From Nitrospirota bacterium (GTDB lineage Bacteria; Nitrospirota; Thermodesulfovibrionia; Thermodesulfovibrionales; UBA6898), in the NCBI GenBank assembly GCA_021811105.1, contig JAJZPM010000032.1, forward strand, positions 1 through 40,721: DNA of 40,721 nucleotides, written 5' to 3'. Positions 14,398 to 36,289 of this stretch are shown piece by piece (position 1 is the stretch's first letter; each line of letters opens with the position of its first letter). A program made the translations under genes and the position numbers. The notes beneath the pieces were generated by a model. That model did no database searches, had not been told where the DNA came from, and worked only from the letters and a program-made list of their open reading frames with translations.

Positions 14398-14696
14398 AAT
14401 TCATTCAGTCAGTCATGCAGCACATCAGCACGGCCCGTCCCCCGTTGCCCGTGCTATTTCCGCCCAACTCGTGATTTTTTAGATTAACGGAAAGTGAAGG
14501 GTTTTGTCAGCATGTAGCTATAAGTTTAGGGGCACTCAATATTGCAATTAGGGGACTCTTCCCGGAGAAAAAGGGCGGAAGGTTCGGCATACGGTCCGGG
14601 ACATGAAATTGCGGATTGTGTTAAGATATCCTGCCCGAAAAGGGAATTTTTTCAAAAAAAAAGTTTCATAATTTTTTGCGAACCGGAGGCGACCAG
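14398..14696. other. Divergent intergenic region between kinase gene and tkt
   Basis: About 300 nt. It holds an inverted repeat GCACGG/CCGTGC at 14428-14433 and 14449-14454, and AT-rich stretches just before tkt (14641-14676). No RNA gene or clear sigma-70 promoter with both boxes was found. Confidence 0.4.
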
Positions 14697-16712
14697 GTGA
14701 AGACGAATATCGATGAACTCTCTGTCAATACGATAAGGATGCTCGCGGCAGATGCCGTGCAGAAGGCAAATTCGGGACATCCCGGGATGCCGATGGGCGA
14801 CGCTCCGATGGCATACGCGCTCTGGTCGAAGTTCCTCAGACATAACCCGAAAAATCCTTTTTGGCATAACCGCGACAGGTTCGTTCTTTCGGCCGGCCAC
14901 GGGTCGGCCCTCCTCTACAGCCTCCTCCACCTCACCGGCTATGAAATCTCGCTCGACGACATAAAGAATTTCAGGCAGTGGGAAAGCCCGACGCCGGGGC
15001 ATCCCGAGTACAGCCCGGGAAAAGGCATCGAAACAACGACAGGACCCCTGGGACAGGGCTTCGCGACGGGAGTAGGAATGGCGATCGCCGAAAAATATCT
15101 TGCCGAAATGTTCAATAAGCCCGGCTTTCCGGTCGTTGATTACCATGTGTACGGCATCATCTCCGACGGAGACCTCATGGAAGGCGTCGCCTCTGAAGCA
15201 GCATCGCTCGCGGGACATCTGAAACTCGGCAACCTGATCTATCTTTACTCCGACAACAAGATCACGATCGAAGGTCCTACGCAACTGACCTTTACGGAGA
15301 ACGTCGGGAAAAGGTTCGATGCCTATGGCTGGCAGGTCCTCCGCGCAGCAGGCAATGACATCGCTCAGATAGCAGAAGCGATAAAGAAGGCGAAGAAGGA
15401 GAAGAACAAACCATCTCTTGTCATTGTGCGGACGAATATAGGGTTCGGGAGCCCGAATAAACAGGACACGCCGGGTGTCCATGGCTCGCCCCTCGGCGAC
15501 GAAGAACTCCGCCTTACCAAGAAAAATCTCAGCTGTCCCCCGAACAAGAAATTCTGCATTCCGAAGGCCGTGGCGTCGCACCTGAAAAAGGCGGTGCAAA
15601 GAGGCAAACAGGAAGAGAAGGCGTGGAACGCGCTCACCGGCAGATACGCAAAAAAATATCCCGAACTCGGCAGGAGATGGGATGATCTTTCGGCCGGCAG
15701 ATTGCCGGAAGGATGGGAGCAGAAAGTGCCGGTGTTCAATCCCTCGGACGGCCCGGTTGCCACGAGGAGCGCATCGGGCAAGATACTGAACGCGATCGCC
15801 GATGTCCTTCCCCAGTTGATAGGCGGATCGGCAGATCTGGCGCCTTCCAACAACACCTATCTGAAAAAATATCCCGACATGGGCGTCGCGAAGGGCGGCA
15901 GGAACATCCACTTCGGAGTGAGGGAACACGCGATGGGGGCCGCCTTAAACGGCATGGCGCTCAGCAGGATGCTTATTCCTTACGGCGGCACTTTTTTCGT
16001 CTTCGCCGATTATATGAAACCGGCAATGCGGCTCTCGGCGCTCATGAAACAGCACGTTGTCTATGTGCTCACGCACGATTCGATAGGCCTCGGCGAAGAC
16101 GGCCCCACCCACCAGCCGATAGAGCAGCTCACGGCCCTGCGGGCCATGCCGAATCTGGCGGTGATACGTCCGGCCGACGCAAACGAGACGGCCGTGGCGT
16201 GGAAGGCAGCCATCGGCGACAGCAGCAGGCCGTACGCGCTAGTCCTCACCCGCCAGAACCTGCCGGTACTGGACAGAAAAAAATATGCGCCGGCCGACGG
16301 CGTCCTGAAAGGGGGCTACATACTCTCTGACCCGAAAGGTACGCCCGACATCATTCTCCTCTCGGCCGGTTCCGAAATCCATATCGCGCTGGCCGCGGCA
16401 GAGACGCTCGGACAGGCCGGCGTTAAGGCAAGGGTCGTCAACATGGCATGCTTCGAGTTCTTCGAGGCCCAGCCGGAGGCCTACCGGAATAAAGTCCTGC
16501 CGCCGGCGGTTGAAACCAGGCTTGCGGTCGAGGCCGGAGCAACGCTCGGATGGCACAAGTACGTGGGTCTCAGGGGAGACGTGATCGGGATAGACCGTTT
16601 CGGCGCCTCGGCCCCTGCAAAGGTCCTGTTCGAAAAATTCGGGATCACCGCGCAAGATATCGTCAACAGGGCAAAAAGGCTGCTGAAAAACAATAGACAG
16701 GAAACGGCATGA
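14697..16712 (+). CDS. tkt: Transketolase
   Basis: Thiamine-diphosphate enzyme that moves two-carbon units in the non-oxidative pentose phosphate pathway. The 671-residue, full-length protein has [47 protein letters not shown] and the ThDP/Mg motif SDGDLMEG...NKITIEG (Ser in place of the first Gly of GDG). The pyrimidine domain has GVREHAMGA and the C-terminal domain begins near GGYILSDP. The GTG at 14697 is preceded by CGGAGG at 7 nt; an upstream TTG would place this ribosome site inside the gene. tusA overlaps its stop by 4 nt. Confidence 0.96.
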
Positions 16713-17039: not shown

Positions 17040-17400
17040 TAGAGAGCTGGCGTAGTGGCCCAAAGGATCTATCTCCAGCTCCCCCTCATCAAATTCCGTG
17101 CATGCAGTTTTCCCGCACACCCTTACCGATTATCTTCTTCCAGCAGCTTTCACAGAGTGAGTCCATGGAGCAGTTCTTGGTATGTTGTAAAGCCCTAAGG
17201 TTTGGTAATAGTAGTGGTCAGGAAACGCCTTGTACCCGAAGCCATGGTAACGATGCTTGCGGCGCAGGTAAATACGAATCCGTTTCACCAAGTATTTTCT
17301 CAGGGACGACAGGGCTGTAGAGCAGTTACCATAGTAAAAGTAGCCTACCCATCCTCTGACAACTTCGTTGACTCTTTGGATTACGACCTCAAATTTTGCC
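17040..17400 (-). mobile_element. Decayed 3' fragment of a group II intron
   Basis: Minus strand. Codons from about 17396 to the TAA at 17130 encode the C-terminal maturase (domain X) part of a group II intron protein: EVVRGWVGYFYYGN, LVKRIRIYLRRKHR and GFGYKAFPDHYYYQTLGL. Just after the stop, 17127-17091 folds like intron domain V, with GCGG-GAAA-ACTGC distal stem, GNRA loop and AT bulge, but the basal strand reads AAGGG where GAGCC with the catalytic AGC triad is expected. A domain VI-like hairpin follows with arms GAGCTGG/CCAGCTC (17044-17050 and 17075-17081). The reverse transcriptase domain and 5' half are missing, so it is immobile. Exact ends are uncertain. Confidence 0.8.
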
Positions 17401-17497
17401 CCGGTCCCGAGAATCTCATTTTTGATTCTTGGGGCCCCCAAATGGTATATTGAGTCATTGCGAAACATTTCACAGAGGTCACTTCCGGCCCCTGCCA

Positions 17498-17527
17498 TTG
17501 CATGTCGTTCAGCATAATTGCTATAAA
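17498..17527 (+). promoter_or_regulatory. Possible sigma-70 promoter of the NtrC-type regulator
   Basis: TTGCAT (17498-17503), 18-nt spacer, TATAAA (17522-17527), about 73 nt before the start codon. The -35 match is poor. Confidence 0.3.
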
Positions 17528-17600
17528 GATAATTTTCGCTTTCAGGCCGATTTTTCCTGGAGAGGCGGGCTTTTTTCACTGCGGGGAGGTGTAAGGGAGC

Positions 17601-18941
17601 ATGAAATATCGGGTTTTGATCATTGAAGACGAAACAGAGATGAGGGTCACCCTCAGGGACTCGCTCGCGGCCGCCGACTATGAGGTCTCATGCGCCGAGC
17701 GGGGCACGGCCGGTATGAATGCACTGAAGTCCGGAGCGTTTGACGTTATCGTTACGGAAGCTGTGCTGCCTGATGTGAAGAGTCTCGACGTCCTCAATGA
17801 GATTGGCAGTGTAAGCCATGCAAGCGTGATTGTTATTACCTCCCACGGCACCATAAAGGACGCTGTGAAGGCGATAAAAATGGGTGCCTTTGACTATATA
17901 ACCAAACCTTTTTCCATCGACGAGTTTCTGATCGCGGTCGAGAGGGCCCTGGACGTCAGGATGCTTCGCGAGGAGAACATTCGGCTCAGGAAGGACATCA
18001 CCAAGTACTTCAACCGCCCGAATATCATCGGCGCCAGTGAGGCGATGAAAAAGATATTCTCTGTTATTGAGAAGGTGTCAACGTCCGATTCGACCGTGCT
18101 TCTGCTCGGGGAAAGTGGGACCGGCAAGGAACTTGTGGCCACAACGATCCACTACCAGAGCAGTCGCAGGGAGAAGCCCCTTGTGAGGCTGAATTGCGCG
18201 GCGCTGCCGGAGGGACTGATAGAAAGCGAGCTTTTCGGTCACGAAAAGGGTGCATTCACCGGCGCGATGAAGAGGAAGGAGGGACGGTTCGAACTCGCGG
18301 ATGAGGGCACCATCTTTCTCGATGAAATAGGGGATCTCCCCCTTTCCACACAGGTGAAGCTACTGCGCGTCCTCCAGGAAAGGAGCTTTGAGCGGGTAGG
18401 CGGGATAGAGACCGTACGTGTTGATGTCAGGGTCATCGCCGCCACCAACAAGAACCTGGAAGAAGAGGTGAAGGCCGGGCGTTTCAGGGAGGACCTCTAT
18501 TTCCGGTTGAACGTAATCCCCGTCACGGTTCCTCCTCTAAGGGAGAGGAGGGAGGATATCCTCCCTCTCATAGAGTATTTTCTCGAAAAATATGAGCGAA
18601 AAACCGCGCGAGAGGTGCATTTTTCGAAGGAGGCTATCGATGCGCTCCTCGAATACGATTATCCCGGTAATATACGGGAACTGGAAAACATCATCGAGCG
18701 GTGCGCAACACTGTCGGTCTCCCACGTGATTGAAAGAGGCGACCTGCCGCCATTTGTATTGAAAAAGACCTATAAGGAGTCTTTGCTGCCTCTTGCAGTT
18801 GTGATTTCGGACGCCGAAAGGGATTATATAGAGAAGGTGCTCGAGATCACTATGTGGAACAGGACAAAGGCAGCTGAAATATTGGGCATCAGCAGGAAGA
18901 ACCTTTGGGAAAGAATCAAGATACTTAACCTCACCAAATAG
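17601..18941 (+). CDS. NtrC-family sigma-54 activator with Asp-to-Glu receiver
   Basis: 446 residues: receiver (1-120), AAA+ sigma-54 interaction domain (about 140-375) and Fis-type HTH (about 405-442). The AAA+ part has Walker A GESGTGKE (170-177), the sigma-54 contact loop GAFTGA (217-222), Walker B IFLDEIG (238-244) and arginine-finger region FREDLYFRL. In the receiver the acidic pocket (Glu9-Asp10), Thr80 and Lys102 (TKPF) are kept, but the phospho-acceptor position reads VIVTEAVLP with Glu53 in place of Asp. In NtrC such a D-to-E change gives activity without phosphorylation, so this may be a constitutive activator. No kinase gene is adjacent; the nuo operon lies 222 nt downstream. The ATG at 17601 has GGGAG and GGGGAGG upstream. 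Confidence 0.92.
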   Translation: MKYRVLIIEDETEMRVTLRDSLAAADYEVSCAERGTAGMNALKSGAFDVIVTEAVLPDVKSLDVLNEIGSVSHASVIVITSHGTIKDAVKAIKMGAFDYITKPFSIDEFLIAVERALDVRMLREENIRLRKDITKYFNRPNIIGASEAMKKIFSVIEKVSTSDSTVLLLGESGTGKELVATTIHYQSSRREKPLVRLNCAALPEGLIESELFGHEKGAFTGAMKRKEGRFELADEGTIFLDEIGDLPLSTQVKLLRVLQERSFERVGGIETVRVDVRVIAATNKNLEEEVKAGRFREDLYFRLNVIPVTVPPLRERREDILPLIEYFLEKYERKTAREVHFSKEAIDALLEYDYPGNIRELENIIERCATLSVSHVIERGDLPPFVLKKTYKESLLPLAVVISDAERDYIEKVLEITMWNRTKAAEILGISRKNLWERIKILNLTK

Positions 18942-18957: not shown

Positions 18958-18977
18958 CTGTTACCGTCCAGTAACGG
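18958..18977. promoter_or_regulatory. Inverted repeat, candidate upstream activator site 1
   Basis: CTGTTAC and GTAACGG (18958-18964 and 18971-18977) form 7-nt arms with one wobble. The left arm continues as GTTACC, which recurs in the second site. It lies about 135 nt upstream of the candidate -24 element, a normal distance for an NtrC-type enhancer. It could instead be a weak terminator of the regulator gene, but no T-tract follows. Confidence 0.4.
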
Positions 18978-19036
18978 TTCTCATCCCTTTCAACGAAAGG
19001 AAAAAACCGGAAATTTCACTCCAGATCTTTCTTTTT

Positions 19037-19052
19037 GTTACCAAAAGGTAGC
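19037..19052. promoter_or_regulatory. Inverted repeat, candidate upstream activator site 2
   Basis: GTTACCAAAAGGTAGC has perfect inner arms TACC/GGTA and near-perfect outer bases. It shares GTTACC with the repeat 77 nt upstream and sits about 58 nt before the candidate -24 element. Confidence 0.35.
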
Positions 19053-19094
19053 ATTCCATCGATACTCTCCTTTAATTTTTCAAGTAATTTTGTC

Positions 19095-19110
19095 TGGCAT
19101 GGTAATTGAA
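19095..19110 (+). promoter_or_regulatory. Candidate sigma-54 (-24/-12) promoter of the nuo operon
   Basis: TGGCATGGTAATTGAA aligns with TGGCACGnnnnTTGCW with correct spacing and two mismatches (C to T, and C to A in the -12 GC). Predicted start near 19121 leaves a leader of about 40 nt with GGAGGAGG before nuoA. The mismatch in the -12 GC weakens the call; the adjacent sigma-54 activator gene strengthens it. Confidence 0.4.
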
Positions 19111-19163
19111 TTGGACCCGATTTACCAGCGATTGCTGAAGATAGCTGATGGGAGGAGGAGTTG

Positions 19164-19634
19164 GTGAACCCATACGGAAACATATTCGTCTTTTTTGTCA
19201 TGGGCTTCCTGTTCGTTTTTTTGAACATGGCCCTTGTCAGGCTCGTAGCGCCAAGGAAACCGAACCCGGAGAAGAACAAGACCTATGAGTGCGGTGAGGA
19301 CCCTATAGGATCGGGCTGGATCAACTTCAACGCCCGCTTTTATCTCATCGCCATCTTGTTCATAATCTTTGATGTCGAAATCATCCTTGTGCTTCCGGTT
19401 ATCGTCAATTTCAGGGACTACGTCCTGGCCGGCAGAGGCCTGACGGCGTTCGTCGATATCTTTCTCTTTGTTACGGTCTTATTCTTAGGCCTTGTCTATG
19501 CCTGGAAGAACGGCTATCTCGAATGGCTCCGCACGGTGCGCAGACAGCTTCGAATAGAGGGCAAGGTTACGAGGGTGAAGGACATCATCGCTGAAGAGTC
19601 AAGGGCGCAGGATAGGGATGCTGGAGAGATTTAA
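19164..19634 (+). CDS. nuoA: NADH-quinone oxidoreductase subunit A
   Basis: Small membrane subunit of complex I near the quinone site. 156 residues with three transmembrane helices (about 6-27, 60-85, 95-115) and the conserved [20 protein letters not shown] loop and [11 protein letters not shown] charged ~38-residue C-terminal tail makes it longer than the usual ~120 residues. GTG at 19164 is preferred over TTG at 19161 because of its spacing from GGAGGAGGAG; the difference is one residue. First gene of the operon; overlaps nuoB by 17 nt. Confidence 0.94.
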
Positions 19635-20118
19635 TATAGTAAACGGGCTGAACGAAGACAGCCGGATGATCCTGACGACCTTAGATGAGGCGGTGAACTT
19701 GGCTCGGGCCAATTCGGTCTGGTATCTCCTTATGGGTCTTGCGTGCTGCTCGATTGAACTGATGCAGACCGGAGGCCCAAGGGCAGACATAGACCGTTTT
19801 GGCTCCCTCTTCAGGGCCACGCCGCGACAATCAGACCTCATGATCGTGGCCGGAACAGTGACGCTGAAGATGGCGCCCCGCCTCAGACGCCTTTACGACC
19901 AGATGGCAGAGCCAAAGTATGTCATAGCGATGGGCAGCTGTGCCAACTGCGGAGGCCTTTTTAATCTCAGCTATTGCGTCGTAAAAGGGGTGGACAAGAT
20001 AATCCCGGTGGACGTGTATCTTCCCGGATGTCCGCCGAGGCCGGAGGCCTTGACAGAGGCGCTTATCAAAATCCAGGAAAAAATAAAGAAAGAAAAATAC
20101 TTCCTTAAGAAGGACTGA
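19618..20118 (+). CDS. nuoB: NADH-quinone oxidoreductase subunit B
   Basis: Carries cluster N2, the last [4Fe-4S] cluster before quinone. The 166 residues have the N2 ligands Cys43-Cys44 ([10 protein letters not shown]), Cys108 (MGSCANCGG) and Cys138 (PGCPPRPE). Peripheral arm subunit on the cytoplasmic side, contacting nuoD, H and I products. The ATG at 19618 lies inside nuoA; no better start is downstream. nuoC begins 4 nt after the stop. Confidence 0.97.
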
Positions 20119-20122
20119 ATGA

Positions 20123-20617
20123 GTGAAAAGAGAAGATCTCATAAAACTGCTGCTATCGAAAATGGGGCGTTCCATTGTCAGGATAGAGGAGATGCCGAAC
20201 AACGACATCATCATGGAGATATATACGGATGATCTTGTCCCTATCATGGTAAGTATGAAGAAGGATGAAGATCTGAGGTTTACGACGCTGATGAACCAGC
20301 TTGGCGTTGATTACGGCGAAAGCTTTGCGGTCATCTACAACCTCTATTCCTTTGATCTCGACAATAAGCTGACGGTAAAGGTGTATATGGACAAGGACAA
20401 TCCCGAGGTGGATTCGGTGGAGCACATATTCCGTGGTGTCAACTGGTTCGAGCGTGAGACCTATGACCTCCTGGGCATCCGTTTTAAAGGACATGGCAAC
20501 CTCGAAAGGCTCCTCCTCCCGCCTGACTGGGAAGGACATCCTCTTCGGAAGGACTATGTCTACCCGGAAGTATATAACGGTCTGGAACTGAAGAGAAAGA
20601 CGCTGCTTGAGGAGTAA
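20123..20617 (+). CDS. nuoC: NADH-quinone oxidoreductase subunit C
   Basis: 30-kDa subunit of the peripheral arm, here 164 residues and not fused to NuoD. The family signature is WFERETYDLLGIRFKGH with LLPPDWEGHPLRKDY. The start is GTG at 20123 with AAGGA upstream; the nearby ATG at 20119 is out of frame. Structural role at the quinone end of the arm. Confidence 0.95.
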   Translation: MKREDLIKLLLSKMGRSIVRIEEMPNNDIIMEIYTDDLVPIMVSMKKDEDLRFTTLMNQLGVDYGESFAVIYNLYSFDLDNKLTVKVYMDKDNPEVDSVEHIFRGVNWFERETYDLLGIRFKGHGNLERLLLPPDWEGHPLRKDYVYPEVYNGLELKRKTLLEE

Positions 20618-20642
20618 TGTCCTTCCAGGTAAAAAGGGCGAT

Positions 20643-21767
20643 ATGGCACATTTCTTGACTGAAGAGATGATCCTTAACATGGGGCCCCATCATCCCAGCA
20701 CCCACGGTGTTCTGAGGTTTATTCTCCAAACCGATGGGGAGATGATGAGGCGTGCCGTCCCGGATATTGGGTTTCTCCACAGGGGCATCGAGAAGATCGC
20801 CGAACTGGTACCCTATCAGTCATTCATGCCCTTTACAGACAGGATCGATTATCTGGCCTCCGCTTGCTGCAACTTAGGTTACGCGGTGACCGTCGAGCGG
20901 TTGGCCGGTATTGAGATCCCTGAAAAGGCCGACTATCTGCGTATAATCGCTGCCGAACTGACAAGGATAGGCAGCCATCTCATCGGCCTCGGCGCACTTC
21001 TCCTTGATCTTGGTGCGGTCACTCCCTTTGTCCATGCCCTCAGGGAACGTGAAACTTTCAATGACCTCATGGAGGCCCTCTGCGGCGCGCGGCTTACCCA
21101 CAACTATGTGAGGATAGGCGGTGTATCCCATGATGAACCTCCCAGCTTCAGGGAAAAGACAAGGAAATTCATAGACCACATCGAAAATGAATTCATCGAT
21201 GAATTTAATGAACTGGCATCCTTCAATACTATCTTCATCAACAGGATGGTGAACGTAGGGGTGATCAGCCCGGAACAGGCCATCGAGCATTGTCTCGTGG
21301 GGCCCAACCTACGCGGATCGGGCGTAAAGTATGATGTGCGGAAGAACGATCCGTACTCCATTTATGACCGCCTTGATTTCGATGTTCCCGTGGGGCACGG
21401 AAAGTTCGGCACCCTCGGCGACTGCTACGATAGGTACTGGGTTAGGGTCGAAGAGGTCAGGGAGTCTTGCAGGATCATACGCCAGGCCCTGGACCAGATG
21501 CCGGAATCAGGAGCGATAAGGACTAAACTGACTCGTGCCTTCAAGCCGCCCAAGGGCGAGATATACGTGCGAACCGAATGCCCGCGCGGGGAGATGGGCT
21601 TTTACCTCATTAGCGACGGAGGAGCGAGCCCTTACCGCCTCAAGATCAGGACCGGCTCATTTACTTCAATGGCCATAATCAGCGAGGTTAGCCAGGGAGT
21701 TATGGTAGCCGACCTTGTGGCGATCATCGGGAGCTTCGACATCGTAGCCCCGGAGGTTGACAGGTAA
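20643..21767 (+). CDS. nuoD: NADH-quinone oxidoreductase subunit D
   Basis: 49-kDa subunit that forms the quinone pocket with NuoB. 374 residues. The N-terminal GPHHPSTHGVLRF holds the quinone-contacting His; the protein ends FDIVAPEVDR as in complex I. It is homologous to [NiFe]-hydrogenase large subunits but lacks their CxxC nickel ligands, so it is not a hydrogenase. The ATG at 20643 follows AAAAAGGG; an upstream TTG frame overlapping nuoC adds 12 non-family residues. Confidence 0.97.
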   Translation: MAHFLTEEMILNMGPHHPSTHGVLRFILQTDGEMMRRAVPDIGFLHRGIEKIAELVPYQSFMPFTDRIDYLASACCNLGYAVTVERLAGIEIPEKADYLRIIAAELTRIGSHLIGLGALLLDLGAVTPFVHALRERETFNDLMEALCGARLTHNYVRIGGVSHDEPPSFREKTRKFIDHIENEFIDEFNELASFNTIFINRMVNVGVISPEQAIEHCLVGPNLRGSGVKYDVRKNDPYSIYDRLDFDVPVGHGKFGTLGDCYDRYWVRVEEVRESCRIIRQALDQMPESGAIRTKLTRAFKPPKGEIYVRTECPRGEMGFYLISDGGASPYRLKIRTGSFTSMAIISEVSQGVMVADLVAIIGSFDIVAPEVDR

Positions 21768-21770
21768 ACA

Positions 21771-22874
21771 ATGCATAGCTTGGCCGGAATCATATACGAT
21801 TTTCTCGTGGCCAGGTTTGGCCGTTCAGATCTGCTCGATCCCCTGTTCGGCCTTGCCGGCTACCTCATTCCCTGTTTCGTGGTCCTGGGCGTGGTAAGTA
21901 CTATCAGCGGCCTGCTTACGTATTTCGAAAGAAAGGTCTCCGCTGATATCCAGAACCGCATAGGTCCGAACCGTGTCGGTCCTTACGGCATCTTCCAGTT
22001 TGTGGTGGACGGGATCAAGCTCTTTCTGAAGGAAGACATCATCCCCGATGCAGCAGATAAGTTCCTCTTTCGACTCGCGCCCTATATCGTTTTTTCATCC
22101 ACGATTCTCGCGGCGATCGTGATCCCCTTCGGAGGGCCTTTTATAATCGCGGACCTGAATATCGGACTGATCTTCATCATAGTCGTGAGTTCCCTTGTTG
22201 TCGTGGGCTTTCTGATGTCCGGATGGGCCTCGAACAACAAGTGGGCGCTCCTGGGGGGCATACGCTCCGCAGCTCAGATCATAAGTTATGAAATCCCGGC
22301 CGCATTTTCACTGCTTACTGTGGTTCTGATCGCCGGGACCTTCTCGATGCAGGAGATAGTGATGAAGCAGGGACCGTGGCCTTGGAACTGGTTTTTATTC
22401 CATAATCCCTTCACCTTTATCGCCTTTTTCATCTTTGTGATCTCAGGCTTGGCCGAGATCAACAGGCTGCCTTTTGACTTTCCGGAAGCAGAATCAGAGC
22501 TTGTCTCCGGCTATAATACGGAGTACTCGGGTATGCGTTTCGGCGTCTTCTTTCTTGCCGAATTCGCGAACATCTTCGTCTCCGCATCAATCGCTGCTGC
22601 AGTATTTTTGGGAGGTGGCAATATAGGGCTCGATCCTTACAAAAGCGGTATTGTTTATCAACTCCTCATGGTCCTTGTTTTCTTTGCAAAAGTGCTCACA
22701 CTCTGTCTTGTGACCATATGGGTCAGGTGGTCGCTGCCCAGGCTTAGGATAGACCAGATGATGTCCATGTGCTGGAAATACTTTATTCCAATTTCTTTCT
22801 CCTGTCTGGGACTGACGGCGGTCTGGCTGCTGATCTTCAATGGAAACGGCATCTTCTGGAGGATCTCGGGATGA
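21771..22874 (+). CDS. nuoH: NADH-quinone oxidoreductase subunit H
   Basis: Membrane subunit linking the quinone chamber to the proton channels. 367 residues, eight or more hydrophobic helices. Conserved FERKVSADIQNRIGPNRVGP, the acidic loop EINRLPFDFPEAESELVSGY and a C-terminal WVRWSLPRLRIDQ are present. Starts 3 nt after nuoD and overlaps nuoI by ATGA. Confidence 0.97.
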   Translation: MHSLAGIIYDFLVARFGRSDLLDPLFGLAGYLIPCFVVLGVVSTISGLLTYFERKVSADIQNRIGPNRVGPYGIFQFVVDGIKLFLKEDIIPDAADKFLFRLAPYIVFSSTILAAIVIPFGGPFIIADLNIGLIFIIVVSSLVVVGFLMSGWASNNKWALLGGIRSAAQIISYEIPAAFSLLTVVLIAGTFSMQEIVMKQGPWPWNWFLFHNPFTFIAFFIFVISGLAEINRLPFDFPEAESELVSGYNTEYSGMRFGVFFLAEFANIFVSASIAAAVFLGGGNIGLDPYKSGIVYQLLMVLVFFAKVLTLCLVTIWVRWSLPRLRIDQMMSMCWKYFIPISFSCLGLTAVWLLIFNGNGIFWRISG

Positions 22875-23350
22875 CGAACGAAGGAGTGCGGTATTTCAAA
22901 AATATCAGGGAAGCCATCCTGACCACAGCAAAGGGCATGAAGATCACCCTCAAATACTGGGTCAAGGAACCTGCTATCACCATCGAATATCCCGATAGGC
23001 TCGGAAAGGGAAGGACGGCTGAGGATCTTGTCTCTGAACGTTATAGGGGATTCCTGAAGCTCGATCCTTCGAAATGCATCGGCTGCCTCCAGTGTATGAG
23101 GGCATGTCCTATCGACTGCATCCTCATAAAGGTCGAGAAGATCGGTGAGGAGAGGTACCTGACGAGGTTTGACGTGGACCAGTCGAAGTGCATGTACTGC
23201 GGCCTCTGTGTTGAGGTCTGTCCCACCGGAGCGATAACCTTTTCGAAGCGGTTCGAGGGGGCCTGCTATGACATCGGCGAGCTTTGTATAAAACACTTGC
23301 AGGAGCCGGTATCGGTGGCAAGGCCAAAGGCTAAGAAGAAAGAAGAATAA
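22871..23350 (+). CDS. nuoI: NADH-quinone oxidoreductase subunit I
   Basis: Two-cluster ferredoxin subunit (N6a, N6b) that passes electrons to NuoB. 159 residues with ligands Cys69, 72, 75, 79 (CIGCLQCMRACP) and Cys107, 110, 113, 117 (CMYCGLCVEVCP). The ATG at 22871 overlaps the nuoH stop (ATGA) and has GGAGGA upstream; a longer frame inside nuoH is rejected. The Lys-rich C-terminal tail is variable in the family. Without NuoEFG, this subunit may be the entry point for electrons. Confidence 0.96.
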   Translation: MTNEGVRYFKNIREAILTTAKGMKITLKYWVKEPAITIEYPDRLGKGRTAEDLVSERYRGFLKLDPSKCIGCLQCMRACPIDCILIKVEKIGEERYLTRFDVDQSKCMYCGLCVEVCPTGAITFSKRFEGACYDIGELCIKHLQEPVSVARPKAKKKEE

Positions 23351-23868
23351 TGAATGTCGAAATGAAAGAAATAGTATTTTTCGGTGTTGCAGCGATGACC
23401 ATGGTGCCGTGCTTTTTTGTGGCCTTCTCACGCAACATTCTTCATTCGGCTTTCGCGTTATTTTTCACTTTCCTCGGCGCGTCGGGCCTCTATTTCTTTC
23501 TCGATGCGGATTTCCTGGCACTGGTCCAGCTCATCATTTATATCGGCGGTGTCCTGGTGTTACTACTCTTCGCCATCCTCTTGACCAAGAACATCGACAA
23601 TATCAGGAGTACCAACGCCGTGGCTGCGAAGCGGGCTGCTGCCGCAGGCGTCGTAACTGCGGCCATGTTTGGTGTAATCCTGTACGCCTTTCTCGCGAGT
23701 GGGTGGCCGTTCCGGCATTCAGGTGCCGGACAATATCCGGCTGTGACTACCAAGGCGCTCGGGAAACTCCTCTTGACCACATACCTGCTCCCTTTCGAGG
23801 CAATCTCCATACTGCTCCTTGCGGTTCTGATCGGGAGTCTCGTGATCGCGAATAGGTCGGTGAAATAG
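23350..23868 (+). CDS. nuoJ: NADH-quinone oxidoreductase subunit J
   Basis: Membrane subunit with five hydrophobic helices, 172 residues. The conserved region LVQLIIYIGGVLVLLLFAIL holds the pi-bulge helix typical of NuoJ. Start ATG shares one base with the nuoI stop (TAATG). Confidence 0.95.
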   Translation: MNVEMKEIVFFGVAAMTMVPCFFVAFSRNILHSAFALFFTFLGASGLYFFLDADFLALVQLIIYIGGVLVLLLFAILLTKNIDNIRSTNAVAAKRAAAAGVVTAAMFGVILYAFLASGWPFRHSGAGQYPAVTTKALGKLLLTTYLLPFEAISILLLAVLIGSLVIANRSVK

Positions 23869-23875
23869 GAGTGAC

Positions 23876-24187
23876 ATGGGAATCATAGCCATACAGAGTT
23901 ATCTGATCATTAGTCTTTTCCTGTTTCTCATGGGGATTTTCACGACCATTTCCCGAAAGAACATCATCGGTATTTTCATGGGTATAGAGCTCATACTGAA
24001 CTCATCGGCCCTTAACTTTGCTGCCTTCAGCAGGTTTTCGGCCCATAACCTTGAAGGTCAGCTCTTTTCGATCTTTATCATCGTCATTGCGGCAGCGGAG
24101 GCAGCCATAGCCCTGGCTTTAATGCTTTCAATCTACAGGCGGTTTGGCGACATAGACGCGGACAAACTGGATAGCCTGAAGGGATGA
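23876..24187 (+). CDS. nuoK: NADH-quinone oxidoreductase subunit K
   Basis: 103 residues and three transmembrane helices, homologous to MrpC. Membrane Glu residues occur in FMGIELILNSSALNF and AAAEAAIALAL, as required for proton relay. AGGAG precedes the ATG. Overlaps nuoL by ATGA. Confidence 0.96.
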   Translation: MGIIAIQSYLIISLFLFLMGIFTTISRKNIIGIFMGIELILNSSALNFAAFSRFSAHNLEGQLFSIFIIVIAAAEAAIALALMLSIYRRFGDIDADKLDSLKG

Positions 24188-26292
24188 GCATGAAGACATT
24201 CATTGAACAATACGGCTTCATGATCTTGCTTTCCCCCCTTCTTGGCTCGGCGATCACTGGCCTCGCTGGAAGACGTATTCAGAAGAAATATGGCGCACGG
24301 CCGATAGGTCTTATCGCGTGCGGATCGGTTCTTGTTTCCTTCATCATCGCACTCGCTGCATTTGCCGCAGTTGCGGGCGCGAGAGAGGGTGAAAAAACGA
24401 TCATCTGTATCGTATTCAACTGGCTGAGCGTGGGCGATCTCAGGGCGGACGTCTCTTTCCTTTTTGATCCCCTGAGTTCGGTCATGATCCTCATCGTCAC
24501 CGGCATAGGTTTTCTGATCCACGCCTATTCAACTGAATACATGAAGGGAGATTCCGGCTATTACCGCTACTTCTCATACCTCAACCTTTTTATATTTTCT
24601 ATGCTCTTACTGGTGCTCGGCGAAAACCTATTACTCATGTTCATAGGCTGGGAAGGGGTGGGGCTCTGTTCCTACCTCCTCATATCCTTCTGGTTCAGCG
24701 AAAAGGCCAACGCAATAGCCGGGAACAAGGCATTCATCGTAAACAGGGTGGGTGATTTCGGCTTTATCCTGGGGATACTCGCCCTGTACAGTCTTCTTAA
24801 AGACAAGATATTCGGCGGCGGTCTCGTTGTACCCGTTGCGCCGTCGCTCCTCAGCTTCAGATTCCTTGCAGAAAATGTCCACCTTATAAATAATATTGAT
24901 ATTTTTGGTGTCAGCGCTGCGACGGTTATTTGTCTCTGCCTTTTCGTAGGAGCGACAGGGAAATCAGCCCAGATACCCCTTTATGTCTGGCTTCCGGATG
25001 CCATGGCAGGGCCGACGCCGGTAAGCGCCCTGATCCATGCGGCTACCATGGTCACAGCTGGAATTTACATGATCGGCCGTCTAAACTTCCTCTTCTCCAT
25101 GAGCGGAACGTCATTAAATGTTATCGCAACTATCGGTGCTGCCACCGCCCTCTTCGCGGCCACCGTCGGGTGCGTGCAGAACGACATAAAGAAGGTCCTC
25201 GCCTATTCAACAGTGAGCCAGCTGGGATATATGTTCCTCGGCATGGGCGTAACAGCTTATTCATCAGGGATCTTCCACCTCGTGACACATGCCTTTTTCA
25301 AAGCCTGTCTTTTTCTGTGTGCAGGGAGCATCATTCTCGGCATGCACCACGAACAGGACATCCGGTGGATGGGCGGGCTGAAGAGATACATGCCGAAGAC
25401 CTTTTTAACTTTCATGATCGCGACCTTAGCCATAAGCGGCGTCCCTCCTTTTTCAGGTTTCTTCAGCAAGGACGAGATCCTTTGGCAGGCGTGGAAGACC
25501 GGACACCAGGGTCTTTGGCTCGTGGGCTTCATGACGACAGGCATGACCTCCTTTTATATGACGCGGCTGGTGATGGTCACTTTTTATGGGGAGAACAGGC
25601 TTCATCTGCGGCCTTCCACCGATGACAGACACGACCATGATGACCACCATCGAGACGGCGTCAAGGAGTCTCCTTCATCTGTGACAATGCCGCTCGTTAT
25701 CCTGGCCTTTTTCTCCGGTGTTGCCGGATTCATCGGCGTTCCTGCCGCGTTGGGAGGAGGTAACCACTTCGAGCATTTTCTTATGCCGGTCTTCGGCCAT
25801 CACGCAGTTGCACATCACGATCCCATGGAATATGTGCTCATGTTTGCCTCGGTTGCGGCGTCCCTCGGCGGGATCGGCGCTGGTGTATTCCTTTACAGGA
25901 TCAGGCCGGAACTTCCAGATATCATCGTATCGAAGATAAAGATGGTCCATCGTATCGTCTATAACAAATACTTCGTGGATGAGATATACGCATTCCTGTT
26001 CGTTTCAGGCACGATGCTTATGACCAGGGTATTCGCTTCCTTTGACCGGTATGTCATTGATCTCTTTGTGGATCTTACCGCACATGTCCTGAGATTCAAA
26101 TCGTATATCAGCGGCGCAATCGATCGCGTTATCGTCGACGGGCTTGTTAACGGTGTTGCTGAAAGTTTTCTTTTTTCAGGATCACAGTTAAGAAAGATCC
26201 AGACCGGAAGGATTCAGGCATATGTTATGGTCCTTTTATTTTTGGTGGTACTTGGAGTTTCTCTCGTAGTGATATTGAAGGGAGAAGTCTAA
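24184..26292 (+). CDS. nuoL: NADH-quinone oxidoreductase subunit L
   Basis: Distal proton-pumping antiporter-like subunit of complex I. 702 residues with about 16 helices. Markers are FIGWEGVGLCSYLLI (key Glu), PLYVWLPDAMAGPTPVSALIHAATMV, and the long C-terminal lateral helix region. A His/Asp-rich loop (DDRHDHDDHH near residue 480, then GHHAVAHHDPM) lies between the last core helices, a common but unexplained trait of NuoL. The ATG at 24184 overlaps the nuoK stop; a second in-frame ATG is two codons on. Confidence 0.96.
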   Translation: MSMKTFIEQYGFMILLSPLLGSAITGLAGRRIQKKYGARPIGLIACGSVLVSFIIALAAFAAVAGAREGEKTIICIVFNWLSVGDLRADVSFLFDPLSSVMILIVTGIGFLIHAYSTEYMKGDSGYYRYFSYLNLFIFSMLLLVLGENLLLMFIGWEGVGLCSYLLISFWFSEKANAIAGNKAFIVNRVGDFGFILGILALYSLLKDKIFGGGLVVPVAPSLLSFRFLAENVHLINNIDIFGVSAATVICLCLFVGATGKSAQIPLYVWLPDAMAGPTPVSALIHAATMVTAGIYMIGRLNFLFSMSGTSLNVIATIGAATALFAATVGCVQNDIKKVLAYSTVSQLGYMFLGMGVTAYSSGIFHLVTHAFFKACLFLCAGSIILGMHHEQDIRWMGGLKRYMPKTFLTFMIATLAISGVPPFSGFFSKDEILWQAWKTGHQGLWLVGFMTTGMTSFYMTRLVMVTFYGENRLHLRPSTDDRHDHDDHHRDGVKESPSSVTMPLVILAFFSGVAGFIGVPAALGGGNHFEHFLMPVFGHHAVAHHDPMEYVLMFASVAASLGGIGAGVFLYRIRPELPDIIVSKIKMVHRIVYNKYFVDEIYAFLFVSGTMLMTRVFASFDRYVIDLFVDLTAHVLRFKSYISGAIDRVIVDGLVNGVAESFLFSGSQLRKIQTGRIQAYVMVLLFLVVLGVSLVVILKGEV

Positions 26293-26295
26293 AAT

Positions 26296-27795
26296 ATGGA
26301 GTTCATTAATAGCCATCTCTTATCGCTCATAACATTTATCCCGGTGATCGGGAGCCTCTTTGTCCTCGCCTTTCCGAGGGACAAGGCCAATCTTATAAGA
26401 TGGTCCGCGCTGGTCATCACCATTATCCCACTCCTCCTCGCTCTCGTCCTCTATGCCGGATTCGACCGGTCTACGGCGGGCTTCAGCCATACAGCAGGGA
26501 TTCAGTTTATCGAGAAGTACACGTGGATAAGGGACTTCAACATGAATTTCTTCATGGGGGTCGATGGCCTGAGTATGCCTATGGTCCTCCTCTGCGCCCT
26601 CATCTGTCCGATCTGCATTCTGGCTTCGTGGAATGTCGAGCGTGGTGTCAAGGGGTATTTTTTCCTTTTCCTCCTCCTTGAGACCGGCATGATGGGTGCT
26701 TTCGTGGCATTGGACTTCTTCCTCTTCTTCATCTTCTGGGAGGTGATGCTCCTTCCGATGTATTTCCTTATCGGCATCTGGGGAGGGCCAAGGCGCGAAT
26801 ACGCGGCGATCAAGTTCTTCATTTATACCCTCGTGGGTTCGGTGATAATACTCCTGGTGATCATCTACTTTTACCTCGCATCCGCTCCCCATACCTTTGA
26901 CATGACCGAACTCGCAAAAAACAATGCCCTGTTCGGCAACCGGATGATCTGCTGGTTCGCCCTCTTCATCGGTTTTGCCATTAAAGTCCCTATATTCCCG
27001 TTCCATACCTGGCTGCCCGACGCCCACGTGGAGGCGCCCACGGCCATCAGTGTTATTCTGGCGGGGATACTCCTGAAGATGGGGACTTACGGGATACTGC
27101 GAATCAACTACACCATGCTCCCCGATATGACCGCGAAGATGGCCACCTTTATGGCGGTCCTCGGCGTGATCAACATCATTTACGGCGCCCTCTGCGCCAT
27201 GTTCCAGAAGGACCTGAAGAAGCTCGTTGCCTATTCGAGCATCAGCCACATGGGCTATGTGATCCTTGGGATAGCGAGCTTCACCGATGAGGGACTCAAT
27301 GGCGGCATATTCCAGATGTTCAACCACGGTGTCGTTACCGCAATGCTCTTTTTACTGGTAGGCGTTATCTATGACAGGGCCCATCACCGGGAGATCGATG
27401 GTTTCGGCGGCATCGCACCAATAGTTCCGAATTATTCCTTTCTGGCCTTCCTGGCCTTCTTTGCGGCGCTGGGTCTTCCCGGTCTTAACAGCTTCATCAG
27501 CGAGGCATTGGTATTGCTCGGAGCATTTCAGAAATACCGCATCCTCACTGCCGTGGCTGCGACCGGCGCGATCATTACCGCTGCCTACTGTCTCTGGACA
27601 TTGCAGCGGATTTTTCTTGGGAAGCTCAATGAAAATTACGCCTTGCTGCCGGATATCACCATGACGGAAGCGGTGACTCTAATCCCCCTCGGTGTCATCG
27701 TGGTAACCCTGGGTATCTACCCCCACCCGGTCCTCGACCTCATGAAGCCGACAGTGAGTTTTCTCAACAATCTCATCATACATATGAAACTGTGA
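26296..27795 (+). CDS. nuoM: NADH-quinone oxidoreductase subunit M
   Basis: Antiporter-like pumping subunit, 499 residues with about 14 helices. Signatures: FFIFWEVMLLPMYFLIG (membrane Glu), PFHTWLPDAHVEAPTAISVILAGILLKMG (split over two helices) and the YSSISHMGYV lysine/histidine helix. Starts 3 nt after nuoL. Confidence 0.96.
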   Translation: MEFINSHLLSLITFIPVIGSLFVLAFPRDKANLIRWSALVITIIPLLLALVLYAGFDRSTAGFSHTAGIQFIEKYTWIRDFNMNFFMGVDGLSMPMVLLCALICPICILASWNVERGVKGYFFLFLLLETGMMGAFVALDFFLFFIFWEVMLLPMYFLIGIWGGPRREYAAIKFFIYTLVGSVIILLVIIYFYLASAPHTFDMTELAKNNALFGNRMICWFALFIGFAIKVPIFPFHTWLPDAHVEAPTAISVILAGILLKMGTYGILRINYTMLPDMTAKMATFMAVLGVINIIYGALCAMFQKDLKKLVAYSSISHMGYVILGIASFTDEGLNGGIFQMFNHGVVTAMLFLLVGVIYDRAHHREIDGFGGIAPIVPNYSFLAFLAFFAALGLPGLNSFISEALVLLGAFQKYRILTAVAATGAIITAAYCLWTLQRIFLGKLNENYALLPDITMTEAVTLIPLGVIVVTLGIYPHPVLDLMKPTVSFLNNLIIHMKL

Positions 27796-27811
27796 TGAAG
27801 GGTACCGAGGA

Positions 27812-29326
27812 ATGAATAATCTGGCGAGCCTGAACTATTTTACTGCCGAGATCTTTCTGTCAGGTTTCATCATTCTACTCTTGGTGATGAGTTTTCTGAG
27901 GATGGACAGGGATAACGGGATAGGCTTTTATTACCTTGCCGGAGTATTCGGTATCGCCGTCACCCTCATCCTAGACCTTGCGGGATGGGGAGAAAGCGGA
28001 GACGGCGCAATTCTCTTTTACGGCATGGCGCGGAACGATCATCTGGCTCATCTCTTCAAATTCCTCTGCGTGCTCTCCTCTCTGATTCTTATGGTCTTCT
28101 CCATGGTCTCACGGGAAACGAACAAGAGGTTCGACAACCCTGCCGAATATGTGCTCCTGATCCTATCGAGCACCTTGGGCATGATACTCATGGCTTCTTC
28201 ATCGAACCTCCTGATGTTGTATATATCTCTGGAATTGCTGAGCCTCACTTCGTATATCCTCACAGGCTTCGCTGACCGCGAAGAGAAGACCTCCGAGGCT
28301 GCGGTGAAGTATCTCCTTTACGGCGGTATCGCGTCGGGTGTCATGCTCTACGGATTCTCACTTCTTTACGGCGTGACCGGCACTTTGGATTATACTGCCA
28401 TGAGGGAGGTCCTTTGGGAACATAAGGTTTCAGGTATGGTACTCTCCATCTCGACCATCATGATCCTTGCGGGCATGGGGTTTAAGATCGCCGCATTCCC
28501 GTTTCATGCCTGGTGCCCGGATGTCTATGAAGGAGCTCCCACACCCTTTACGGCATTTCTTTCGGTAGGCTCGAAGGCCGCAGGATTTGTCATCATCGTC
28601 AGGTTCTTCTTCCAGATATTCGGAGCAGGCGATGGCGGGAATTTTGAGATCCTCGGCGATATCCTCGACTGGCCGATGGCAATAGCGGTCCTCTCTGCAT
28701 GTACCATGACTTACGGCAATATGGCGGCCCTTCAGCAGAGGAACATAAAAAGGCTTCTTGCCTATTCGAGCATCGCTCAGGCAGGATACGTGCTGATGGC
28801 GGTAGCGAGTCGTTCTCAGCCGGGCATATCATCAGCCTTTTTCTATCTCTGCGTCTATTTCATCATGAACTTCGGAGCGTTCCTTGCGGTGATCATCATT
28901 AATAATGAACTGAACTCCGAAATGATCGAAGACTATGAGGGGCTCGTATGGAAGAGCCGCAAGGGAGCGTTTCTGGCCTCGATGTTGGCGATATGCCTCT
29001 TCTCCCTGACCGGCGTTCCGCCATTTGCGGGATTTATCGGGAAGCTCTACCTCCTCCTTTCGGTCCTTGCAAAGGGGAGTTCACTTTACTGGCTGGCGGT
29101 GATTGCGGTGATCAACACGGTTATATCCTTCTATTACTATTCCCGGATATTGAGGCTCATGTTTCTCTCAAGGAGGCTTAGGGGTGCAGACCTTTCAAAA
29201 CTCGAGAAGAGTGATTATCTGCCCTATTCGGTCATGGCCGGCCTCGCGTTTCTGACCATTCTCCTCGGCATCTACTGGGAACCGCTGGATGGTCTGAGCA
29301 GACTTGCGGCAACGTTTATAAAATGA
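27812..29326 (+). CDS. nuoN: NADH-quinone oxidoreductase subunit N
   Basis: Third antiporter-like subunit, 504 residues, nearest the quinone arm. Signatures: YISLELLSLTSYIL (Glu), FKIAAFPFHAWCPDVYEGAPTPFTAFLSV and AYSSIAQAGYVLM. The start is ATG at 27813-27815 region by sequence with AAGGG upstream. Last of the eleven nuo genes. nuoE, nuoF and nuoG (NADH-oxidising module) are absent from both ends of the operon. Confidence 0.96.
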   Translation: MNNLASLNYFTAEIFLSGFIILLLVMSFLRMDRDNGIGFYYLAGVFGIAVTLILDLAGWGESGDGAILFYGMARNDHLAHLFKFLCVLSSLILMVFSMVSRETNKRFDNPAEYVLLILSSTLGMILMASSSNLLMLYISLELLSLTSYILTGFADREEKTSEAAVKYLLYGGIASGVMLYGFSLLYGVTGTLDYTAMREVLWEHKVSGMVLSISTIMILAGMGFKIAAFPFHAWCPDVYEGAPTPFTAFLSVGSKAAGFVIIVRFFFQIFGAGDGGNFEILGDILDWPMAIAVLSACTMTYGNMAALQQRNIKRLLAYSSIAQAGYVLMAVASRSQPGISSAFFYLCVYFIMNFGAFLAVIIINNELNSEMIEDYEGLVWKSRKGAFLASMLAICLFSLTGVPPFAGFIGKLYLLLSVLAKGSSLYWLAVIAVINTVISFYYYSRILRLMFLSRRLRGADLSKLEKSDYLPYSVMAGLAFLTILLGIYWEPLDGLSRLAATFIK

Positions 29327-29362: not shown

Positions 29363-29791
29363 ATGAATATGAGGGATATTCTGAAGGACAAGGGAAGGGA
29401 CGTCACCACAATCGAGGCCGAATCCGGCATTATCGTGGCAGCGCAAAAGATGGCCGACAGGAAAATCGGCGCCCTCCTGGTGGAGGACAATGGCAAACTG
29501 GGCGGCATCATCACCGAGAGGGACATCGTTATTGCAGTAGCGAAGACTGAATGCGAGTTTAAGTTCCTCCGGGTGAAGGATATCATGATCACCAGCAAAA
29601 ACCTCATTGTGTCGGAGCCTGATGACTCTGAGGATCAGGTCATGGCCGTGATGATTCAGAAGAATATAAGACATATGCCTATCGTGGAAGGAGGGGAACT
29701 GGCAGGCATGGTTTCCATCAGGGATGTGGTCCGTGCCCATGTGCAGAAACTCAGGGCACAGGTCCGGTTTCTTGCTGACTTTGTCGGGTAA
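29363..29791 (+). CDS. Tandem CBS-domain protein
   Basis: 142 residues forming two CBS motifs (about 8-65 and 73-132), each ending in the typical GGIITERDI or AGMVSIRDV pattern. Stand-alone CBS pairs bind adenine nucleotides and regulate partners; the partner here is not known. AAGGAG precedes the ATG. It follows nuoN by 36 nt on the same strand, so it may be co-transcribed and could sense energy charge, which is inference only. Confidence 0.9.
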   Translation: MNMRDILKDKGRDVTTIEAESGIIVAAQKMADRKIGALLVEDNGKLGGIITERDIVIAVAKTECEFKFLRVKDIMITSKNLIVSEPDDSEDQVMAVMIQKNIRHMPIVEGGELAGMVSIRDVVRAHVQKLRAQVRFLADFVG

Positions 29792-30220
29792 AAGGGGTAT
29801 TCCTCCCATGATAAAAATGTAGCCGACGAATGACTGCGTTCTTGTGACAGATATTGAGCGAAACCTTTCTCAATTTTATGAACGCGATGCAATCCTCTTT
29901 CTTCGAATCAAAAGTCACATCGGTATAACCTAAATGCCGAAGCAGCAATCTTTATGTCGCAAAATGACCTCGGCAGATGGGTTCCTGTCCCCCTTATTCC
30001 ATCTCCCGTTCCGCTCCCGGCTTCCCGATGAGTCCGCGACTTTCTGGGTGGAGTTCTCATCCTGGACTGCGGCCATAGAAGGCGGGTTTGTCCGGGTAAC
30101 TGCCATATCGTCCACGTGCTGTGCGTGTGCTCACCTCCGGCAAATCAAGTATTGGCGACTTCTCAAGATGCGTTGCCGGTTGCCAACCGCCTGCGTTATC
30201 TTTGTATAATAGTAGCTGTA
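29792..30220. other. Long spacer with no recognised gene
   Basis: About 430 nt. Short open frames exist on both strands (for example minus 29751-29948 and plus 29934-30209) but none has recognisable protein features, a good ribosome site or a family match known to me. Possibly a decayed gene. The mrcA promoter occupies its last 40 nt. Confidence 0.45.
30180..30210 (+). promoter_or_regulatory. Promoter of the class A PBP gene, near-leaderless
   Basis: TTGCCA (30180-30185), 19-nt spacer, perfect TATAAT (30205-30210). The ATG at 30221 is 10 nt past the -10, so the leader would be only about 3-5 nt and no Shine-Dalgarno can be included. Confidence 0.5.
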
Positions 30221-32038
30221 ATGTCTAATCTCGGACAGGATCTCCGGAAGGCGGAGGAAAAGGCCCGGTCAAGAAAGTTTCTCTATCTGTTTGTCTTCGC
30301 CTGCGCGGTCTGCGGAATCCTCGGAGGGTTCGTCTACTGGACGCTTTCGGACCTTCCACAGGTAAACGCGATCGAGGAATACGTTCCTGCGGAATCGTCG
30401 AAGGTGTATTCATCCGACGGGAAGATCCTCGCCGAGTTCTACTATGAACGCCGCACATTCGTGCCTTCTTATAAGATCCCCGATTACGTGAAAAAGGCAT
30501 TCGTCGCGATCGAAGACGCCCGCTTCTACAGCCATCCCGGGGTCGACTTCATAGGCATATTGCGGGCGCTGGCAGAGGACATCAGGGCAAGGGGGATGGT
30601 ACAGGGCGGAAGCACGATCACCCAGCAGCTCGCGAAAATGCTCTTTCTGAAGCCCGAAAAATCGCTGAGCAGGAAAGTCAAAGAGGCGGTCATATCGCTG
30701 CAACTGGAGAAGCGCTATACGAAGGACGAGATACTCGGCCTCTATCTGAACCAGGCTTATTTCGGGACGAGGGCCTTCGGGGTCGAGGCCGCTTCCCAGG
30801 CCTACTTCGGGAAGTCCGTAACAGGCCTGACTCTGGGGGAGGCGGCGCTTCTGGCGACACTTCCCAAGGCGCCGTCCCATTATTCGCCCTTCAGAAACCC
30901 TGAACAATCGAAGGAGCGGCGGGCAACCGTGCTGGACTCGATGCTCAGGCACCGCTTCATCACCCGTGACCAGTACACAAGGGCAATGCAGGAACCCCTG
31001 CCTCTTTCCCCTCATTACAGAAAATATGAGGCGCCTTACTTCGTCGAACTCCTGCGGCAGCAGATGGAGCACAAATACGGGAACGCAGTCTACACTGCCG
31101 GATATAAGATCCATTCGACGATCGACTCGTCCATGCAGCTTGCGGCGGAAGAGGCGCTCGAAAAAGGCGTAAATGCCGTCGAAAAGAGGGTCAAAAAGGG
31201 AGTGCAGGCATCGCTTGTCGCAATCGATATGCGCACAGGACATATCAAGGCGATGGTGGGCGGCTTTGATTTCTGGCAGAACCAGTTCAACAGGGCGACT
31301 CAGGCGCTGAGACAGCCCGGTTCGGCCTTCAAGCCTTTTGTCTACGCAACCGCGCTCGAAGACGGGATGACGCCCGACTACATGATCCAGGATTCTCCGA
31401 TCTCATTTCAGGGGGCAAGACCCGGGCAGATCTGGTCCCCGAAAAATTATGATGGGAAATACCACGGCGCCGTCCCGCTGAAGACCGCCATTGCGAAATC
31501 ATTGAATGCGGCGACAGTACGGCTCGCCGCTACTCTGGGGGTCGACAATATCATCGAAACGGCGAGAAAATTCGGGATCACCAGTGATCTCCAGCCCTAT
31601 CTTCCGCTGGCCCTCGGCGCTTCCGATGTTACGCTCGCCGAGATGGTCCGCGCATATTCTGTGTTCGCAACCGGCAGGAAGATAGACCTCATACCGTACG
31701 AGCGCATTGAAAACAGGGACGGCATCGTAATCGATGAGCGGTATCCGCATTCCGAGGAGGTGCTTGACAAAGACACAGTCAGCAGCATGAAAGTGCTCCT
31801 CGGCGCGGTGGTGAGAGAAGGCACCGCAACAAAGGCAAGGGACCTGGGAAGACCGGTATACGGCAAGACCGGAACGACGAACAATTTTTCCGATGCGTGG
31901 TTTATCGGCTTTGACGACAGGCTGGTGGTCGGCGTCTGGGTCGGCAGGGACAATCACAAACCGATCGGGAATAAAGAGACGGGTGCGCAGGCCGCGCTTC
32001 CGATCTGGATAGACTTCATGAAAAAGGTACAGCGGTGA
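30221..32038 (+). CDS. Class A penicillin-binding protein (PBP1A type)
   Basis: Bifunctional peptidoglycan glycosyltransferase/transpeptidase anchored by one N-terminal helix (about 20-40). 605 residues, shorter than E. coli PBP1A because the inserted OB-type domain is absent. Glycosyltransferase motifs: EDARFYSHPGVD with catalytic Glu, QGGSTITQQLAK, KRYTKDEILGLYLNQAYFG. Transpeptidase motifs: SAFK (SxxK), SLN and KTGTT. The ATG at 30221 gives the normal cytoplasmic tail; a longer upstream frame begins before the promoter. It converges with the parvulin gene across a strong hairpin. Confidence 0.94.
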   Translation: MSNLGQDLRKAEEKARSRKFLYLFVFACAVCGILGGFVYWTLSDLPQVNAIEEYVPAESSKVYSSDGKILAEFYYERRTFVPSYKIPDYVKKAFVAIEDARFYSHPGVDFIGILRALAEDIRARGMVQGGSTITQQLAKMLFLKPEKSLSRKVKEAVISLQLEKRYTKDEILGLYLNQAYFGTRAFGVEAASQAYFGKSVTGLTLGEAALLATLPKAPSHYSPFRNPEQSKERRATVLDSMLRHRFITRDQYTRAMQEPLPLSPHYRKYEAPYFVELLRQQMEHKYGNAVYTAGYKIHSTIDSSMQLAAEEALEKGVNAVEKRVKKGVQASLVAIDMRTGHIKAMVGGFDFWQNQFNRATQALRQPGSAFKPFVYATALEDGMTPDYMIQDSPISFQGARPGQIWSPKNYDGKYHGAVPLKTAIAKSLNAATVRLAATLGVDNIIETARKFGITSDLQPYLPLALGASDVTLAEMVRAYSVFATGRKIDLIPYERIENRDGIVIDERYPHSEEVLDKDTVSSMKVLLGAVVREGTATKARDLGRPVYGKTGTTNNFSDAWFIGFDDRLVVGVWVGRDNHKPIGNKETGAQAALPIWIDFMKKVQR

Positions 32039-35459: not shown

Positions 35460-35475
35460 CGGGATACCAAATCAG

Positions 35476-35504
35476 GGCCGGGAATTCTTCCCGGCCTTTT
35501 TTTT
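35476..35504 (+). terminator. Rho-independent terminator after the 11-haem cytochrome gene
   Basis: Perfect 9-bp stem GGCCGGGAA/TTCCCGGCC (35476-35484 and 35488-35496), 3-nt loop, followed by eight T (35497-35504), 17 nt after the stop codon. Confidence 0.88.
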
Positions 35505-36253: not shown

Positions 36254-36289
36254 AGTTGAAAAATGAGACAGGAGATGAGGTACTGCTGA

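Follow-up and report, generated by a model that had tools for sequence, protein, structure and literature searches.

A predicted sigma-54 promoter with two predicted upstream activator sites lies in front of an accessory complex I operon, and sigma-54 control of this operon from these sites is well supported by sequence comparison. In the stretch of DNA analysed here (40,721 nt from an uncultured Nitrospirota bacterium, hereafter the window), these elements are located between the gene of an orphan NtrC-type sigma-54 activator (17601–18941, + strand; Pfam Response_reg, Sigma54_activat and HTH_8) and the operon nuoABCDHIJKLMN (19161–29326, + strand). The likeliest reading is that the adjacent orphan regulator activates the operon; its main rival is control, sole or shared, by a paralogue encoded at C12 in the same genome. 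On balance, it is probable that the adjacent activator, the two sites and the sigma-54 promoter together drive the accessory complex I, most likely independently of phosphorylation. In the proposed mechanism, the 17601–18941 product, an orphan regulator related to the AioR/ArxR class, would bind both 16-bp palindromes and, once bound, contact sigma-54 RNA polymerase at TGGCATGgtaaTTGAA; this contact would drive transcription of the 11-subunit complex I operon, probably including the CBS-domain gene behind it, and the activator would act either as a permanently active form or as a form dependent on its expression.

Structure of the Intergenic Region

In the window sequence, an intergenic gap of 219 nt separates the activator gene from nuoA (19161–19634, + strand). 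The distal site, GTTACCGTCCAGTAAC (18960–18975, no strand assigned), is a perfect GTTAC-N6-GTAAC, while the proximal site, GTTACCAAAAGGTAGC (19037–19052, no strand assigned), carries one mismatch and is separated by 42 nt from the -24 element downstream of it. The predicted -24/-12 promoter, TGGCATGgtaaTTGAA (also written TGGCATGGTAATTGAA), occupies 19095–19110 on the + strand, and its +1 was set at 19121 by the convention that the T of TGG is counted as -26. Relative to this +1, the proximal and distal sites are centred at about -76 and about -153, respectively, that is, within roughly 70–160 nt upstream. The promoter has GG at -24, the correct spacing and 10 of the 12 consensus positions, but GA instead of GC at -13/-12; GC is a strong preference there and not an invariant one, and GA weakens the assignment to the sigma-54 promoters without overturning it. 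The preliminary description of this DNA had proposed two inverted repeats, an imperfect -24/-12 element and a leader of plausible length between the activator gene and nuoA; all of them are present at the positions it gave, the repeats being 77 nt apart from start to start, although only the first repeat is perfect.

The predicted untranslated leader with its GGAGGAGGAG ribosome-binding site spans 19121–19163 (+ strand) in the window sequence, which leaves about 40 nt before the nuoA start. Either TTG at 19161 or GTG at 19164 could serve as that start; because NuoA homologues begin with MNPYGN (G173) or MLNxYGN (G010 and G012) and GTG 19164 gives VNPYGN, the latter is probably used. A riboswitch or structured leader was rejected, as the leader has no match in Rfam and its RNA fold is ordinary (z = -0.5).

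It can be asked whether inverted repeats and a -24/-12-like element could have arisen here by chance, given that the -12 element departs from the textbook GC and that a sigma-54-like site alone (at least 10/12) was obtained in 102 of 20,000 sequences made by dinucleotide shuffling of the gap. The combination, however, behaves differently: neither the two palindromes together nor a palindrome 40–43 nt before a sigma-54-like site appeared in any of the shuffles (0/20,000 each). In the 40.7 kb window, GTTACN6GTAAC with up to one mismatch occurs only at the two gap sites, TGGCAN6TTGNW matches solely the gap element, and a position weight matrix built from the promoters of the activator's relatives finds TGGCATGgtaaTTGAA as the only such site. 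In pattern searches of the organism's own genome, GTTACN6GTAAC is found in three places, and only two sites with TGGCAN6TTG at the searched spacings were obtained, one after the window activator (C18) and one after the C12 paralogue; the preliminary description had proposed looking for such repeats before other -24/-12 promoters, and the C12 module is the one further case that came to light. With this single additional occurrence and the conservation of the combination across the class beside related activators, coincidence is largely excluded and keeps a negligible probability. The third genomic GTTACN6GTAAC (C34:23573) was itself taken as a chance match: it falls within the 3' end of a gene, and no TGGCAN6TTG accompanies it at the searched spacings.

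Conservation of the Module beside Related Activators

Close relatives of the activator (about 53–66% identity) occur in other Thermodesulfovibrionia genomes and once in the own genome, at C12. Just downstream of the regulator gene, most of them have GTTAC-N6-GTAAC, usually twice, followed by TGGCA-N6-TTG. With the distal spacing, a search of 230 genomes of the class gave 27 matches and the reversed-pattern control none; with the proximal spacing, the respective numbers were 13 and 1. The nearer palindrome lies 41–43 nt from the -24 element in 26 of 31 distinct modules (42 nt in the window), and the farther one mostly at 127–134 nt; at 119 nt, the window falls short of this by about one helical turn. 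These 31 modules were partly gathered by the same pattern, so that the conservation of TGGCA and GTTAC is built into the collection, whereas this does not apply to the spacing, the -12 variants or the neighbouring regulator. The -12 pentamer is TTGCT or TTGCA in 15 of the modules and TTGAT, TTGTA or TTGAA in 13, and the TTGAA of the window is thus ordinary for this module; the imperfection remarked on earlier is real as GA for GC, but it is common among the homologous promoters (13/31). At L222, a translated frame downstream of the site resembles a regulator fragment.

Most relatives are preceded by genes for a PhnD-like binding protein and a histidine kinase, and behind them there is usually an operon for a molybdenum oxidoreductase that includes an FeS subunit and, often, a TorD/DmsD-like chaperone and a multihaem cytochrome; the catalytic subunits are near the ArrA, PhsA or TtrA models, below the cut-offs. 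No close relative was found beside nuoA. The window therefore resembles the regulator–molybdenum reductase loci of Thermodesulfovibrionia (the own C12 locus, G020, G014, G060, G052 and others) in regulator family, twin GTTAC sites and -24/-12 spacing, but differs from them in what lies downstream, which in those loci is a PhsA/ArrA/TtrA-like reductase operon or multihaem cytochromes.

The Activator and Its C12 Paralogue

The activator consists of a receiver, an AAA+ domain and a Fis-type HTH; its best NCBIfam match is AtoC, below the cut-off, the GAFTGA and Walker motifs are present and the AAA+ domain is intact. The genome also contains rpoN (contig C75). Taken with the conservation of the module beside the activator's relatives, these features strongly support the sigma-54 control that the preliminary description had put forward as possible. 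The three domains have not diverged equally: conservation of the AAA+ domain is 0.71 for the window activator versus 0.72 among relatives, that of the receiver 0.53 versus 0.67, and that of the HTH, the most diverged of the three, 0.47 versus 0.70, and in view of this last value the DNA specificity of the window activator may have shifted.

At receiver position 53, the window activator has Glu, while Asp is found in 24 of 24 aligned relatives. A cognate sensor or kinase of the activator family was sought beside the activator gene and none was found; the only close kinase of the family in the genome sits at C12. Because the phospho-acceptor Asp is replaced by Glu and the sensor and kinase are missing, action independent of phosphorylation is suggested. 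It has been reported that in an NtrC-like regulator of Myxococcus, D54E is sufficient for activity and D54A is not (PMC6211767); constitutive activity of the window activator through Glu53, as suggested in the preliminary description, is plausible in the light of this precedent, and Glu53 could equally mean loss of function.

The last point bears on the main rival, in which the promoter is real and its main activator is the phosphorylatable C12 paralogue, the adjacent Glu53 protein being a helper, a modulator or inactive. The C12 regulator keeps Asp53 and has a full set of PhnD-like sensor and kinase, its promoter and that of the window both carry GTTAC-N6-GTAAC with TGGCA-N6-TTG and are the only two such cases found in the genome, and control at a distance is made plausible by G012, where the module on the nuo side lies about 30 kb from the regulator gene. 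However, the adjacent activator has kept its AAA+ domain at the level of conservation seen among relatives, it is encoded on the inserted block that also carries the presumed target, and the window sites are slightly off the C12 type in spacing; principal control from C12 is accordingly regarded as rather unlikely. Under such control, whatever induces the C12 molybdenum reductase would also induce the complex I operon. In the phylogenetic tree, the window activator forms a separate long branch and the C12 paralogue groups with regulators from the same family; a recent duplication of the activator from the C12 paralogue was rejected, since the tree places the window gene apart from C12.

Probable Insertion of Regulator and Target as One Block

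In the congeners G001, G002 and G003, the penicillin-binding protein gene directly follows the transketolase gene, an empty site, and the two genes are also close together in G010 and G012. In the window, the transketolase gene (14676–16712) and the penicillin-binding protein gene (PBP1-type, 30116–32038) flank the activator, the promoter, the nuo genes and the CBS gene, and homology to G002 ends on the left at 16945 and resumes on the right at 30178. Given the empty site in the congeners, the segment of about 17.0–30.1 kb is best read as an insertion, with regulator and target on one block of ~13 kb. At its left end lies the remnant of a group II intron reverse transcriptase/maturase (17130–17579, - strand; Pfam GIIM and NCBIfam group_II_RT_mat), which stands where the activator's relatives carry the kinase gene. 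Outside the block, two multihaem cytochrome c genes and the genes of a PsrB-like FeS protein and an NrfD-like membrane protein (34461–38797, + strand) probably encode a quinone-linked electron-transfer complex, and an AbiEi/AbiEii-type toxin–antitoxin pair is found at 38913–40354 (+ strand).

Such an origin admits the reading that the module is a relic, having arrived with the regulator gene from a reductase locus, and that nuo uses another promoter, for example by read-through from the activator gene. The long branch of the activator, the loss of sensor and kinase, the changed phospho-acceptor and the intron remnant beside the activator gene fit this reading, as does the result of a search for an intrinsic terminator on the + strand between the activator gene and nuoA, which found none. 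Against it, the activator and the surrounding DNA have diverged, yet the two sites, the promoter and the precise spacing of 42 nt have been kept; the AAA+ core gives no indication of relaxed constraint, and no sigma-70-like promoter was found on the + strand of the 219-nt gap. A relic is therefore improbable, more so than principal control from C12. Returning to activation by the adjacent regulator, its evolutionary extension is that a regulator and promoter module from loci of metalloid or sulfur respiration was captured, ungated from its sensor and kinase by the Asp-to-Glu change and wired to complex I as one inserted block; this proposal is tentative, and we hold it to be a little short of an even chance.

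Accessory Complex I in Other Genomes

The genome has three nuo clusters, in the window (C18), at C86 and at C49. The window cluster is an 11-subunit accessory complex I without nuoEFG (Pfam; gene order and identity in relatives), while the nuoD–nuoH gap of the C86 and C49 clusters is roomy enough for nuoEFG; a promoter of the window type was sought at both of these and is absent from each. The preliminary description had spoken of the complex I operon: the target is indeed a nuo operon, but the accessory one of three. The CBS-domain protein gene (29363–29791, + strand; Pfam CBS) is a conserved companion, accompanying this nuo type in four other genomes and following nuoN in G010, G173 and G209.

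When 230 genomes of the class and 395 of the phylum were searched, the accessory nuo type was found in seven genomes including the own, and signs of sigma-54 control of this type are seen in three of the seven. No -24/-12 element was found before nuoA in G173, G209, G233 and G271, that is, in four of the six other clusters of the type; conservation of the repeats along with the nuo genes was rejected on this account, and on the sequence evidence the sites go along with the activator family rather than with nuo. In G012, the GTTAC/-24/-12 module lies about 0.9–1.1 kb upstream of nuoA, before the CBS gene, which stands between module and nuoA; with a gap of 270 nt between them, the CBS gene and nuoA may or may not be co-transcribed.

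Conservation of the repeats in relatives, on which the preliminary description had laid weight, holds beside the relatives of the activator but does not extend to G010, the only other case found of a regulator directly before nuoA. The NuoA of G010 is 82% identical to that of the window, and an NtrC-type regulator, here with sensor and kinase, lies directly upstream of nuo, with its own -24/-12 element, TGGCATAAATATTGCT, 128 nt before nuoA. However, this regulator is only 44% identical to the window activator and has its Asp intact, and the repeats are TGTCC-N6-GGACA, 258–290 nt upstream of the promoter. The G010 locus (G010:C57; L171 5462–7712) thus appears to be an independent case of sigma-54 control of the accessory nuo type. 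Counted against activation by the adjacent regulator in the window are the mismatch in the proximal site, the distal spacing of 119 nt, the divergence of the HTH, the possible loss of function through Glu53 and the four of six nuo clusters lacking a -24/-12 element.

Comparison with Known Regulatory Systems

AioR and ArxR are AtoC-family regulators; each works together with a kinase and a PhnD-like sensor, and their targets have RpoN promoters (PMC5908839, PMC2848651). It has been reported that AioR, the arsenite oxidase regulator, binds a 16-bp site with the predicted motif GT[TC][AC][CG]...AAC and the footprint GTTCGGATTTCCGAAC (PMC5335332), and that RpoN is needed for the transcription of aioBA, which begins at a promoter of the form TGGCAC...TTGC (PMC2848651). 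Most relatives of the window activator likewise follow a PhnD-like binding protein and a kinase, their regulator is of the NtrC/AtoC type, and a 16-bp palindrome of the form GT..-N..-AAC precedes the RpoN promoter in both systems (PMC5335332, PMC5908839, PMC2848651). Compared by eye, GTTACCGTCCAGTAAC has the same geometry as the published AioR motif and agrees with it at 14 of 16 positions, two central letters being different. From these parallels in gene order, site and promoter, which draw on published descriptions, the activator's relatives look as if they work like AioXSR/ArxXSR. The window itself differs in that the target is complex I and not a molybdenum enzyme, the PhnD-like sensor and the kinase are absent beside the regulator, and the regulator has Glu instead of a phosphorylatable Asp.

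For complex I, a sigma-54-like sequence, GGGCACCATATTTGCT, has been described before nuoA of Xylella fastidiosa (PMC3224663); in the available part of that source, it is an in silico match before a 14-gene nuo operon, with neither activator nor activator sites named.

Significance

Little evidence exists for sigma-54 control of complex I driven by an activator: the searched literature yielded a single case, the in silico site of Xylella. Complex I is usually regarded as a housekeeping enzyme. The present case supplies a precise module of two sites, one promoter and one activator, and would tie an accessory complex I to a regulon that otherwise serves mainly molybdenum respiratory reductases. 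It also offers a natural change of the phosphomimetic type in a sigma-54 activator whose ATPase core has stayed conserved. If the captured-module proposal is true, a respiratory promoter once gated by a signal would, in natural evolution, have lost that gate and come to serve another respiratory enzyme.
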